A stretch of DNA of 64,000 bases, from assembly GCA_947498155.1 (NCBI GenBank), contig CANMJD010000004.1:149190-213189 (forward strand). Direction: 5' to 3'. A program made the position numbers and the translations under genes. Under the pieces are notes generated by a model. That model saw only the letters and a program-made list of their open reading frames with translations. It had not been told where the DNA came from and searched no databases. Source of the stretch: an uncultured Pseudoruegeria sp. (GTDB lineage: Bacteria; Pseudomonadota; Alphaproteobacteria; Rhodobacterales; Rhodobacteraceae). Position 1 is the first letter of the stretch. Each line of letters begins with the position of its first letter. Positions 50,106-55,392 of this stretch are shown piece after piece.

Positions 50106-50474
50106 CGCCCAATTACGCAACCAGAAACGCCTTAGGCTCTCTTAGGTAAAGTTTCCTATCAATTTCAAAAGCCGATGACGGGCATTCAACCCACTCCGGT
50201 GGCATTTGGTCCGTGGTTTCCAGTAAACCGCTTACCCATGAACAGATGTATCTCCGGCTTCGCCCTCCTGAGGGTCGGCTGAATCGCTGAGAAATAGCCA
50301 AGTCGTGGTATCGGATCGCCGCTTTTAGGGGCCTTTTAGTTTGAATCTAAGCCTAATAATTGGGCATAATAGCTCGGTTCAATACAAAAATAGGCAAACT
50401 GCCGGAAAAAACCGCCCTATTCTTTCAACCCGCTTGATCCAAAAATACCACTTCGCAATCGTCAAAGGGCAGGG

Positions 50475-50583
50475 TGCTTAGGGTTCCGTAAATGTCATCG
50501 CGATGTTTGGTCTGGTCCGAGAAGTACCACCGGTGCGGCAAACTCCGCATAGGCACACGGCGGGGCAAAATCCCGGGAGGTTA
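50475..50583 (+). ncRNA. Guanidine-I (ykkC) riboswitch aptamer
   Basis: Characteristic conserved segments in order: TAGGGTTCCG ... TGGTCTGGTCCGAGA ... ACACGGCGGGGCAAAATCCCGGGAGG; directly upstream of ABC transporter and guanidinase-like genes. Confidence 0.92.
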
Positions 50584-50679: not shown

Positions 50680-51744
50680 ATGCCATCTAAACTCTTATCC
50701 TCTGTAGCTGTTTGCGCAGCTCTTTTTTCATCCCTTGGGATGCCCGTTTATGCCGAAGAAAAGACTGAATTCAAACTTGCATGGTCCATTTACGTGGGTT
50801 GGATGCCCTGGGGCTATCTTGATGAAAGCGGCATCATGGATGAATGGGCCGACAAGTACGATATCAGTGTCGAGATCGTTCAGATTAATGACTACGTTGA
50901 GTCCATCAACCAATATACGGCGGGTGCCTTTGACGGCGTGTCAGCAACAAACATGGACACATTGTCCATCCCGTCTGGTGGCGGCGTCGATACAACGGCT
51001 TTGATCATTGGCGATTATTCAAACGGCAACGATGCTGTCATCATGAAGGGAGAAGGCACCCTTGCCGATCTTGCGGGCCAACCGGTGAACTTGGTCGAAC
51101 TGTCCGTATCCCATTACCTTTTGGCACGTGGTCTGGGTACTGTCGGCCTTGAGGAATCCGATCTTGATGGTGTGATCAACACGTCAGACGCAGATATGAT
51201 TGCGGCCTATGCCACCAAAGATGTGAAAGCCGTCGTGACATGGAACCCGCTTGTTTCCGAGATCACCAGCAGCAATCCAGATGCGAACATCCTGTTCGAC
51301 AGCTCTATGATCCCCGGTGAGATTCTGGACCTCATGGTGGTCAACACCGAGACGCTTGCCGACAATCCCAACTTCGGGAAAGCTGTTGTGGGTGCGTGGT
51401 ACGAAGTGATGAGCCTAATCGCTTCTGGCGACGAAGAGGCCCTGACAGCCATGGCAGAAGCATCAGGAACGGATCTTGAAGGGTTCAATGCCCAGCTTGC
51501 CGCGACAGAGATGTTCACCGACCCAGCCGAAGCCGTTGCGCAGGCCGCTTCCGCAGAGTTGCCAACGACGATGACGACAATCGCTGACTTCTTGTTCGAC
51601 AAAGGAATCTTGGGCGTTGGCGCGCCAAGTGCCGATTTTGTCGGGGTGGAATATCCGGGCGGCGTGGTCACCGGCAACGAAGCAAACGTGAAGTTTCGAT
51701 TTGACGCCACCTACATGCAGATGGCCGCTGATGGCGAATTGTAA
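50680..51744 (+). CDS. NitT/TauT-type ABC transporter substrate-binding protein (predicted guanidine-responsive)
   Basis: Signal peptide MPSKLLSSVAVCAALFSSLGMPVYAEE; FKLAWSIYVGWMPWGYLDESGIMDEWADKYDISVEIVQINDYVESINQYTAGAFDGVS; downstream of ykkC riboswitch. Confidence 0.88.
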   Translation: MPSKLLSSVAVCAALFSSLGMPVYAEEKTEFKLAWSIYVGWMPWGYLDESGIMDEWADKYDISVEIVQINDYVESINQYTAGAFDGVSATNMDTLSIPSGGGVDTTALIIGDYSNGNDAVIMKGEGTLADLAGQPVNLVELSVSHYLLARGLGTVGLEESDLDGVINTSDADMIAAYATKDVKAVVTWNPLVSEITSSNPDANILFDSSMIPGEILDLMVVNTETLADNPNFGKAVVGAWYEVMSLIASGDEEALTAMAEASGTDLEGFNAQLAATEMFTDPAEAVAQAASAELPTTMTTIADFLFDKGILGVGAPSADFVGVEYPGGVVTGNEANVKFRFDATYMQMAADGEL

Positions 51745-51821
51745 AATTTGCTCTGTTGGCGCGTCGTGATCGGCGCGCCATCTATCGTCAAAATCGATGC
51801 GCACCCAACCGGAGGAGCGTC

Positions 51822-52634
51822 ATGAGACTTATCAATCGCATACCATCAAAACCCACAGGAATCTTGCTGGCAGCCCTGCCGTTTATCCTTGTGCTTCTGG
51901 CCTATTCGATCGCGTCTGAAATACGTCTAGCCGCAAATCCACAAGACAAACTGCTGCCCGCAATCAGCACGATTTGGGACACCGCCACGCGCTTGTTTAC
52001 TGAACAAGATCGCCGGTCAGGCGACATCTTGCTGTGGCTCGATACATGGGCGTCACTCTGGCGACTTCTGCTTGGGGTTGGGATATCCGCATTCATTTCA
52101 CTGATTTTTGGTATGGCGATTGGATTGTTGCCCATTGCTAGGGCGGGCTTATCCAGTTTTGTGGCCGTCTTGTCGATGGTGCCGCCGCTGGCATTATTAC
52201 CGATCCTGTTTATCGTTTTCGGGCTGGGAGAGGTCTCTAAGGTTGTTTTGATCGTCATTGGCATCACACCCTTTATGACACGGGACTTGTCGCAACGTGT
52301 GCTGGACATTCCAGCCGAGCAATTGATCAAGGCCCAAACGATTGGGGCATCTTCAGGCGTGATTGCCCTGCGTGTTGCCTTGCCGCAAATCCTGCCGCGG
52401 TTGATTTCGAACGTGCGCCTGTCGCTTGGTTCTGCCTGGCTGTTTCTGATCGCCGCCGAAGCGGTCGCATCTGATGTTGGTCTTGGCTATCGCATCTTCT
52501 TGGTGCGTCGCTACCTCGCGATGGATGTCATCCTGACCTACGTGGTTTGGATCACATTGCTCGCGTTTATGATCGACTGGGCGCTTAAGACGCTGTCGCG
52601 AAAATCATTCCCATGGATGGAGGCAGGACTATGA
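51822..52634 (+). CDS. NitT/TauT-type ABC transporter permease
   Basis: BPD-type permease with signature GASSGVIALRVALPQILPRLISNVRLSLGSAWLFLIAAE. Confidence 0.9.
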   Translation: MRLINRIPSKPTGILLAALPFILVLLAYSIASEIRLAANPQDKLLPAISTIWDTATRLFTEQDRRSGDILLWLDTWASLWRLLLGVGISAFISLIFGMAIGLLPIARAGLSSFVAVLSMVPPLALLPILFIVFGLGEVSKVVLIVIGITPFMTRDLSQRVLDIPAEQLIKAQTIGASSGVIALRVALPQILPRLISNVRLSLGSAWLFLIAAEAVASDVGLGYRIFLVRRYLAMDVILTYVVWITLLAFMIDWALKTLSRKSFPWMEAGL

Positions 52635-53398
52635 GTTTTGTAACTGTGCGGGATATTTGGCAGTCTTATGGTGATCGCTCGATCATTGAGAGAGTAAATC
52701 TGGATGTGGACGAAGGTGAGTTCGTCTCAATCGTCGGGGCCTCTGGCTGTGGCAAATCCACGTTCTTGCGGCTGCTGCTGGCGCAAGAGCGACCGACGCG
52801 TGGTGAAATTCGGATCGATGGTGGTGCACCGGCTGTGGAACCAAACCTTGAGCGCGGCGTTGTCTTCCAGAGATACTCGGTTTTTCCGCATCTCACTGTC
52901 CGCGAGAACCTAGTGGCTGGCATCGGATTCTCTACCCGTTCCGGGTACTTATTCGGCAATACCCGTAAACAAGCACTGAAGGCGGCAGATGAAATGCTGT
53001 CCCGGATTGGGCTCAACCACGTTGCCGATCAATACCCGGCGTCGCTCTCTGGCGGGATGCAGCAACGCCTTGCGATTGGACAGGCCATGGCTGCCAAACC
53101 AAGGGTGCTATTGCTTGATGAACCCTTCGGAGCGCTTGATCCGGGGACCCGTTTACAGATGCATGAATTCCTGTTGGAGCTTCGCGATGAAACCAACATG
53201 ACCGTCTTTATGGTTACCCATGATCTCGATGAAGGGTTCAAATTAGGCGACCGTGTGTTGGTGTTTGATAAGCCGCGTTGGGACCCGCATGATCCGGGGG
53301 CATATGGCGCGACCGTCACCTATGATTTTGATGCGCGCGATGGCGGGATGCCGTTCCAGAATTTACTGGAGAAATATCCAACCCTCGCCGCGAATTAA
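52631..53398 (+). CDS. NitT/TauT-type ABC transporter ATP-binding protein
   Basis: GASGCGKSTFLRLLL, SLSGGMQQRLAIGQAMAAKPRVLLLDEPFGALDPGT; ATGA overlap with permease. Confidence 0.93.
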   Translation: MSFVTVRDIWQSYGDRSIIERVNLDVDEGEFVSIVGASGCGKSTFLRLLLAQERPTRGEIRIDGGAPAVEPNLERGVVFQRYSVFPHLTVRENLVAGIGFSTRSGYLFGNTRKQALKAADEMLSRIGLNHVADQYPASLSGGMQQRLAIGQAMAAKPRVLLLDEPFGALDPGTRLQMHEFLLELRDETNMTVFMVTHDLDEGFKLGDRVLVFDKPRWDPHDPGAYGATVTYDFDARDGGMPFQNLLEKYPTLAAN

Positions 53399-53495: not shown

Positions 53496-54767
53496 ATGTT
53501 TTCGGATTTTGAGAGAAGACGTTCCCACCACCCACGGGATTTGGCGAAACGCTTCAACGCGACACAAAAACGCCAGCACCACCCCGATTTGACCAAACTT
53601 GCAGGCTGGAAGGCCATGCAAAAAGAGGCCGATCTTCCCGAAGGCCGCCACGACGAAGAACGTCGCTGGGCGCTGCGCATGGGGCTCACGGGTGCAGATG
53701 CTATCGAAGACAAATCCATCCCAACCTTCGCACGAGGCGAACTTCCTCATTTTGCGGGCATCAATACCTTCCTGAAAGCCCCCTATGCCGAGGATGTTTT
53801 GGAGGTCGCAAACTACGATGCAACTGTGTTGGGAATTCCGTTTGATGGCGGGACAACCTACCGACCGGGTACGCGATTTGGCCCGCAGGGATTGCGCAAA
53901 ATCTCGGCGCTTTACACGCCGTATAACTACGAACTTGGCGTCGATCTGCGTGAGCAAATGACCATGTGTGATGCGGGCGATGTTTTCACCATTCCTGCCA
54001 ATATTGAAAAGTCATTTGATCAGATCAGCCGTGGTGTGAGCCATGTATTCAGCTCTGGTTCCCTGCCCATCATGATCGGTGGCGATCATTCTATCGGGTT
54101 CCCCTGTGTGCGTGGCATCGCGGAATGTACATCCAAGAAAATCGGCATCGTTCACTTTGACCGCCATGCCGACATTCAGGAAAAAGACCTCGACGAGCGC
54201 ATGCACACAACGCCGTGGTTTCACTCAACGAACCTGCCCAATGTGCCGGCAACCAACCTCGTTCAGATCGGTATCGGCGGTTGGCAAGTCCCGCGTGAAG
54301 CCGTCAAAGTGGCCCGCGAGCGCAATACCAACATCATCACCATGGGCGATATGGAAAAGATGGGCATCGACAAGACCATCGAGATGGCGCTGGAAATGGC
54401 GTGGAAAGACGTCGACATGGTATACCTGTCCTTTGACATCGACAGTATCGACTGTGGTTTTGTGCCCGGTACCGGCTGGCCTGAACCCGGAGGCTTTTTA
54501 CCTCGTGAAGCGCTGGCGCTTGCCTCCGGAATTGCAGCCGAAGGCATTTGCGGCATGGAACTGGTTGAAGTTTCTCCACCTTATGACACCTCTGACATCA
54601 CTGCCTTGATGGGGACACGGGTGATTGTGGATGTGCTCGGCGCTTTGGTGGCGAACAACAAGCTTGGGGCGCATAAGCGGCATATCGACAAACCCGTGTC
54701 CCTACCGCATGGCGAATTTGACGGCAAACGATGGTCAAACGATGCGCCCCACAAGGTAGGTGAGTAA
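53496..54767 (+). CDS. gdmH: Ureohydrolase (arginase/agmatinase) family, GdmH/Sll1077-like putative guanidine hydrolase
   Basis: GGDHSIG, HFDRHADIQEKDLDERMHTTPWFHSTN, SFDIDSIDCGFVPGTGWPEPGGFLPREAL; long N-terminal extension; operon with ykkC riboswitch and transporter. Confidence 0.85.
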   Translation: MFSDFERRRSHHPRDLAKRFNATQKRQHHPDLTKLAGWKAMQKEADLPEGRHDEERRWALRMGLTGADAIEDKSIPTFARGELPHFAGINTFLKAPYAEDVLEVANYDATVLGIPFDGGTTYRPGTRFGPQGLRKISALYTPYNYELGVDLREQMTMCDAGDVFTIPANIEKSFDQISRGVSHVFSSGSLPIMIGGDHSIGFPCVRGIAECTSKKIGIVHFDRHADIQEKDLDERMHTTPWFHSTNLPNVPATNLVQIGIGGWQVPREAVKVARERNTNIITMGDMEKMGIDKTIEMALEMAWKDVDMVYLSFDIDSIDCGFVPGTGWPEPGGFLPREALALASGIAAEGICGMELVEVSPPYDTSDITALMGTRVIVDVLGALVANNKLGAHKRHIDKPVSLPHGEFDGKRWSNDAPHKVGE

Positions 54768-55216
54768 TGCCGCACGATCATTCTCATGACCACGATCACC
54801 ACCACGCCCATCACGGCGCGGGGCATAACCACAGCCACGGCGATCATTTGCATTCACATCTTCATGACGAAGACGAAGCGGCCGACATTCAAGTGTTGGC
54901 CACCCAATTCATCGACGGGTTTGTGCAGGCGAAGGACAAGTCAAGCTACCTGAAGCTGGCGGGGGTTCCGTTTGAACGCCCGTCATCCGGTGGCTCCAAA
55001 GCCCTTAAGCTCATCGATATTGAACTTAAGACTGAATGGCAGGTCGGTACGGCCTCGCCATCTTTCGGCTCTCGCGAACTGTCCTACCTGCCCTTCCCTG
55101 GGGAAATGGTCAATGAACGCACCAATATGTCCCTCATCTATGTTTCCATGGATGAGAAATCAGTCCTCGATATTCGAGATTTTCTACTGAAGAAAAAGAA
55201 GGAGCTAGACACATGA
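54767..55216 (+). CDS. His-rich putative metal-binding accessory protein of unknown family
   Basis: MPHDHSHDHDHHHAHHGAGHNHSHGDHLHSHLHDEDE (16 His in first 33 residues) followed by ~110 aa domain; 1-nt overlap with guanidinase gene. Confidence 0.85.
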   Translation: MPHDHSHDHDHHHAHHGAGHNHSHGDHLHSHLHDEDEAADIQVLATQFIDGFVQAKDKSSYLKLAGVPFERPSSGGSKALKLIDIELKTEWQVGTASPSFGSRELSYLPFPGEMVNERTNMSLIYVSMDEKSVLDIRDFLLKKKKELDT

Positions 55217-55392
55217 ACAAATTTTTAACGGGCGCATTTGCTGTCTTCGCCGCATCACCTGCTGTTGCACATGTTAGCGAGATGCCCATTCACACCCATG
55301 GACATGAAGCCCCTGCAATAGCAGTTGGCGCTATCCTGCTTGCAGTATTGGTTTGGCATCTGAATAAACCTTTATCAGAGCATAGAAAATAG
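55213..55392 (+). CDS. 59-aa secreted/membrane peptide with His cluster
   Basis: Below ORF-track cut-off: MNKFLTGAFAVFAASPAVAHVSEMPIHTHGHEAPAIAVGAILLAVLVWHLNKPLSEHRK; ATG overlaps the stop of the His-rich gene by 4 nt. Confidence 0.7.
   Translation: MNKFLTGAFAVFAASPAVAHVSEMPIHTHGHEAPAIAVGAILLAVLVWHLNKPLSEHRK

Follow-up and report, generated by a model that had tools for sequence, protein, structure and literature searches.

The window analysed here is a 64,000-nucleotide stretch of DNA from an uncultured Pseudoruegeria sp. On its forward strand lies an operon in which a riboswitch is followed by the genes of an ABC importer, a guanidine hydrolase gene (gdmH), a gene encoding a His-rich protein and a gene encoding a 59-amino-acid protein. 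The operon is headed by a guanidine-I (ykkC-yxkD) riboswitch aptamer (positions 50467..50581, + strand), detected with Rfam RF00442 at 72.2 bits (gathering score, 63). The ABC transporter (~50680-53398) is part of the guanidinase operon and comprises a periplasmic substrate-binding protein of the guanidine/urea type (50680..51744, +; NCBIfam TIGR03427 ABC_peri_uca, 508 bits, over cut-off; the start was inferred to be the methionine of MPSKLL), a permease (51756..52634, +; PF00528, 60 bits) and an ATP-binding protein (52613..53398, +; PF00005, 118 bits). When 15 related loci were scanned at the gathering score, the riboswitch was present upstream of the operon in 12 and was not found in L055, L134 and L138. 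With RF00442 lying upstream, expression of the operon is predicted to be controlled by guanidine. The original prediction mentioned neither the riboswitch nor the 59-amino-acid protein, nor that the importer genes are part of the operon.

The gene downstream of the importer (53496..54767, +; PF00491, 259 bits) encodes a guanidinase of the arginase superfamily. Its product shares 64% identity over 353 aligned residues with Synechocystis GdmH (PDB 7esr/7oi1), and the Nitrospira inopinata guanidinase (9fek), also a strong match, is the second of its best solved relatives. All six metal ligands of the Synechocystis enzyme are retained (H198, D222, H224, D226, D314 and D316). The GdmH-like assignment made in the original prediction is therefore upheld, and the enzyme is predicted to be of the GdmH type, with an arginase fold and binuclear metal (Ni/Mn) ligands, and to hydrolyse guanidine in a Ni-dependent manner. 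In a FastTree phylogeny of GdmH proteins, the alphaproteobacterial enzymes with a His-rich neighbour form one group (support 0.88), and their nearest relative in the tree set is Synechocystis GdmH (joint clade support 1.0). Activation of the Synechocystis enzyme requires the Ni2+-delivery proteins GhaA and GhaB (PMC10094980, PMC11271267). As the nearest relative in the tree uses GhaA/GhaB, the simplest reading is that the alphaproteobacterial branch swapped one set of accessory proteins for another.

The last gene (55213..55392, +) overlaps the His-rich gene by 4 nt (ATGA) and encodes a 59-aa protein with a signal peptide, a short His motif (AHVSEMPIHTHGHE) and one transmembrane segment. A protein of 50-65 aa with this same arrangement is encoded in 42 of 53 related loci of the Rhodobacterales type, nearly always with the 4-nt overlap, and its His motif begins near the predicted cleavage site. 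The small membrane protein occupies the slot held by HupE in some Rhizobiales; a HupE/UreJ nickel permease follows the His-rich gene in Sinorhizobium fredii NGR234 and GR64 and in G908 (PF04955, 153-169 bits). The small protein bears a resemblance, and no more than that, to the first segment of HupE: the HupE domain PF04955 did not match the 59-aa protein of the window, and DUF6732 (PF20506) scored 16.4 bits, below its cut-off of 27. Elsewhere in the genome, a HupE gene has a HupE-like ORF as its immediate neighbour (L170 and L172, G000:C1:821414-822504), near an ABC permease gene resembling the taurine/nitrate types; this region is possibly a nickel-uptake locus.

A His-rich protein with a conserved C-terminal domain

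The ORF at 54767-55216 (+) starts with ATG and encodes 149 aa. It overlaps the gdmH stop codon (TAA, 54765-54767) by 1 nt, and its N-terminal tail (54767..54868, +), predicted to be disordered, carries 16 His among residues 1-33, both as originally described; the remainder of the protein is devoid of His, and Cys is absent throughout. The tail precedes a conserved C-terminal domain (54869..55213, +). Among related loci from public genomes, 53 of 54 keep an MPHDH...HLHSH tail followed by this domain, with ~40 invariant positions, which argues that the ORF is not a chance reading frame. Sequence searches against Pfam, NCBIfam and the PDB matched the C-terminal domain, which the original prediction had not recognised, to no family, unrelated ones included, and a viral structure library gave no meaningful match to the protein. 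Annotated relatives are labelled 'hypothetical protein', and no paper describing the family was found among the open-access articles searched. The family is undescribed; it is also real, strongly conserved and tied to GdmH.

The known nickel maturation proteins were considered in turn. PF01155 (HypA) did not match the His-rich protein, and the CxxC zinc site of HypA is absent from 70 family members. No Pfam or NCBIfam match to the GTPases HypB or UreG was obtained, and the P-loop (GxxxxGK[ST]) is missing from the same 70 members. UreE gave no Pfam match, and its lone NCBIfam match, at chance level (E 0.78), came from the His tail. The C-terminal domain is itself nearly free of His (median 0 in 70 sequences), with no conserved His or Cys. 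As P-loop and CxxC are lacking and the domain is almost His-free, the protein is not HypA, HypB or UreG under another name. In the tail, the number of His ranges from 1 to 28 across the 70 sequences (median 18), and the domain is kept throughout, including in relatives with as few as 1-5 His. Because the domain persists while the His count varies, the domain is the indispensable core of the protein. HypB and UreE have His-rich tails that act as capacity boosters, and by analogy the tail is probably a capacity booster here.

An AlphaFold2 model of the protein is confident for helices and strands (pLDDT 85-95 in most blocks) and predicts that the C-terminal domain folds into two helices, long antiparallel strands and a terminal helix. 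The loop at residues ~91-112, which is modelled with uncertainty, carries the most conserved motif of the family, WQVGTASPSFGSRELSYLPFPG; being conserved yet unstructured in the monomer model, this loop suggests a binding surface. With Foldseek, COMM-domain chains were the commonest among weak matches to the predicted domain (8 of the first 13, with E 0.25 or worse and low TM), the query being a monomeric model with a poorly predicted central loop. Neither the Pfam model nor profile comparison supported a COMM-domain identity: PF07258 found nothing in the source genome at E values up to 10, and hhalign against COMM, with a COMM alignment of two sequences only, returned a probability of ~0.1%.

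The His-rich gene accompanies gdmH

The distribution of the family was followed in 395 evenly drawn Rhodobacterales genomes, 45 of them GdmH+ and 350 GdmH-. The full His-rich protein is encoded directly downstream of gdmH in 44 of the 45 GdmH+ genomes; in the 45th (G295), gdmH is cut by the contig end. None of the 350 GdmH- genomes has a full copy, and two contain decayed fragments, one of them L140 (Fisher p = 8e-58 for the pairing, a figure that ignores relatedness and is not to be taken literally). Within single genera (g2, g4, g13 and g15, for example), the two genes are present together in some species and absent together from others, indicating that gdmH and the His-rich gene are inherited as a unit. 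Of the 54 database relatives, 53 lie directly behind a GdmH-type gene. The exception, L056, was rejected as an independent context as it is a decayed remnant. L139, L140 and L056 are decayed operon remnants in species without a working gdmH; the L140 remnant adjoins broken pieces of gdmH, and its permease gene is broken too. The source genome also contains an orphan half copy of the C-terminal domain, ~62% identical (L002 1498-1707; G000:C2:522293-522502). It was not retained as a second copy of the domain but taken as a remnant: it is half-length, without His tail or gdmH, and lies beside IS-like sequence.

The pairing extends beyond the order. A homologue lies directly behind gdmH in all 10 non-Rhodobacterales alphaproteobacterial loci of a class sample and in the 3 further alphaproteobacterial GdmH loci of a phylum sample; identity to the window protein is ~26-56% in these 13 homologues. 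When a profile of the diverse family was searched against 358 Pseudomonadota genomes, matches were restricted to GdmH+ genomes, and the gene order is unchanged in the plasmid-borne operons of Limimaricola and Sinorhizobium fredii. Sharing an operon and a riboswitch with the importer could reflect a role of the His-rich protein in guanidine uptake or regulation, such as control of the ABC importer; we regard this as highly improbable, because the gene always lies behind gdmH and because in G850 (L148) the riboswitch immediately precedes gdmH and the His-rich gene follows it, without an intervening ABC gene.

This strict pairing, together with conservation of the domain where the tail is nearly lost, would also fit an obligate structural partner or assembly factor of GdmH, in which the His tail is an add-on nickel buffer only. 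Such a partner has a precedent in metformin hydrolase, MefH, whose second, inactive beta subunit is needed for solubility and activity, the alpha subunit alone being insoluble (PMC11399263). However, the domain is unrelated to arginases, a long His tail is kept in most members of the family (median 18 His) and the close relatives from Synechocystis and N. inopinata assemble as homohexamers with no subunit of this kind (PMC11410670); we consider such a partner or assembly factor unlikely.

HypA and HypB are missing from the source genome

The original prediction started from the absence of a HypA/HypB-like gene in the operon. This was confirmed and extended to the whole source genome (3.71 Mb, 99.97% complete), an outcome that, like the failure to place the C-terminal domain in any known unrelated family, favours the idea of an alternative helper: a PF01155 search found no HypA, and a TIGR00073 search found no HypB. 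Two matches to TIGR00073 were discarded: the first, sub-threshold at 75 bits, is the UreG of a urease operon, and the second appears to be the signal-recognition GTPase FtsY, which we take it to be from its sequence. UreG is the sole close GTPase of the genome, and its gene neighbours those of UreF and of a UreE whose C-terminus is His-rich. The genome thus encodes urease maturation proteins and not hydrogenase-type ones. Over a broader set, 46 of 58 GdmH+ alphaproteobacterial genomes lack HypA; the remaining 12 carry it tens of kilobases from gdmH or on a separate contig, never adjoining gdmH. Across the genomes surveyed, the family occurs with GdmH only.

The presence of UreG, UreE and UreF in a genome without HypB raises a different scenario, in which the His-rich protein would act as an adaptor through which UreE/UreG of the urease machinery load GdmH, with GTP-driven release by UreG. 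UreG was indeed present in 6/6 GdmH+ genomes checked. This co-occurrence is uninformative, since GdmH makes urea and urease is expected in such genomes regardless, and the ure genes are unlinked to gdmH here; we therefore consider the adaptor scenario quite unlikely.

A putative nickel accessory protein for GdmH

Like the class of His-rich nickel metallochaperones, the protein combines a His-rich segment with a genetic link to a nickel enzyme, and it is probably a new kind of nickel helper that would bind Ni(II) and promote metallation of its client. Observations that argue for a role as nickel helper are (i) the strict pairing with gdmH, (ii) the missing HypA/HypB, (iii) the conserved GdmH ligands and (iv) the linkage to HupE in relatives. 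Our preferred reading, to which we give a probability of about 0.6, is that GdmH has in the His-rich protein its own dedicated nickel accessory protein, which replaces GhaA/GhaB in Alphaproteobacteria and would bind nickel, dock on the enzyme and assist insertion. Guanidine would turn the operon on through the riboswitch, and the importer, the enzyme, the His-rich protein and the small membrane protein would be co-produced. The disordered His tail would capture Ni(II) from the cytosolic pool, and the C-terminal domain would dock on nascent or apo-GdmH. Once docked, the domain would either keep the active site competent or present the loaded tail, such that nickel rather than manganese enters, and the transfer would proceed without nucleotide, including GTP.

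Several observations count against an accessory role: some relatives have only 1-5 His in the tail, and the C-terminal domain has no conserved His or Cys; the genome encodes UreE (with its His tail), UreF and UreG, which offer an alternative nickel donor; and in E. coli the N. inopinata guanidinase acquires some nickel with no dedicated chaperone (PMC11410670). The original prediction had proposed a nickel reservoir or an insertion factor. The association with GdmH, the nickel context, the missing HypAB and the unrecognised domain are in favour of this candidacy, but its reservoir part is the weaker one, since the domain is retained in relatives with 1-5 His; docking or insertion is the likelier essential function. 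A protein serving only in metal storage or detoxification, without specific contact with GdmH, is very unlikely. The His-rich tail and the HupE adjoining it in some loci would suit such a protein, yet a domain with ~40 invariant positions would be superfluous in a general metal buffer, and the family is confined to gdmH operons under the guanidine riboswitch. As to the dedicated accessory protein that we favour, a bolder version is offered tentatively: the C-terminal domain might be the founding member of a new class of nickel-insertion factors that need no nucleotide, perhaps as a bacterial COMM-like oligomer with His-rich tails, and that took over from HypA/HypB for a single alphaproteobacterial nickel enzyme.

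Discussion

How guanidinases without HypA/HypB are supplied with nickel is a question already posed in print for comammox Nitrospira, in whose genomes no nickel-loading protein was found and for which the authors call the mechanism unclear (PMC11410670). For one large group of these enzymes, the His-rich family offers a specific candidate that is open to test, and it would mean that the accessory proteins of a nickel enzyme can be of wholly different kinds from one lineage to another. At a practical level, this conserved 'hypothetical protein' is worth including when alphaproteobacterial guanidinases are expressed in heterologous hosts.

The comammox Nitrospira guanidinase resembles the present system in being of the GdmH type, with a guanidine-I riboswitch and no HypA/HypB (PMC11410670). 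On Rubrobacter plasmids (L153 and L154), GdmH-type genes likewise have neither HypAB nor a His-rich protein adjoining; in the case of L153, the plasmid of R. indicoceani, gdmH is preceded by a guanidine-I riboswitch and followed by urease genes. As the comammox Nitrospira and Rubrobacter-plasmid guanidinases are without such a neighbour, a dedicated chaperone is not universal among these enzymes. UreE, HypB and SlyD share with the His-rich protein a disordered His-rich extension thought to hold nickel, but the folded domain described here matches none of the three in Pfam or NCBIfam. COMMD1-10 and the bacterial COMMD-like structures 9q6c and 9q6a have a strand-strand-helix order similar to that of the predicted domain, all matches being insignificant.

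Closer functional parallels are found among the ureohydrolases. MetA/MetB of metformin hydrolase operons are also dedicated nickel proteins of a Ni-dependent ureohydrolase, with HupE linked, although they belong to the HypA/HypB family and metformin hydrolase is heteromeric (PMC11399263). Synechocystis GhaA/GhaB (Sll1078/Sll1079) are a HypA-type Zn protein and a GTPase, whereas the protein described here is single, with no CxxC, no P-loop and no match to HypA or to the NCBIfam model of HypB; in both systems, the genes adjoin gdmH within an operon that includes an ABC importer, and the enzyme is of the same type (PMC10094980, PMC11271267).
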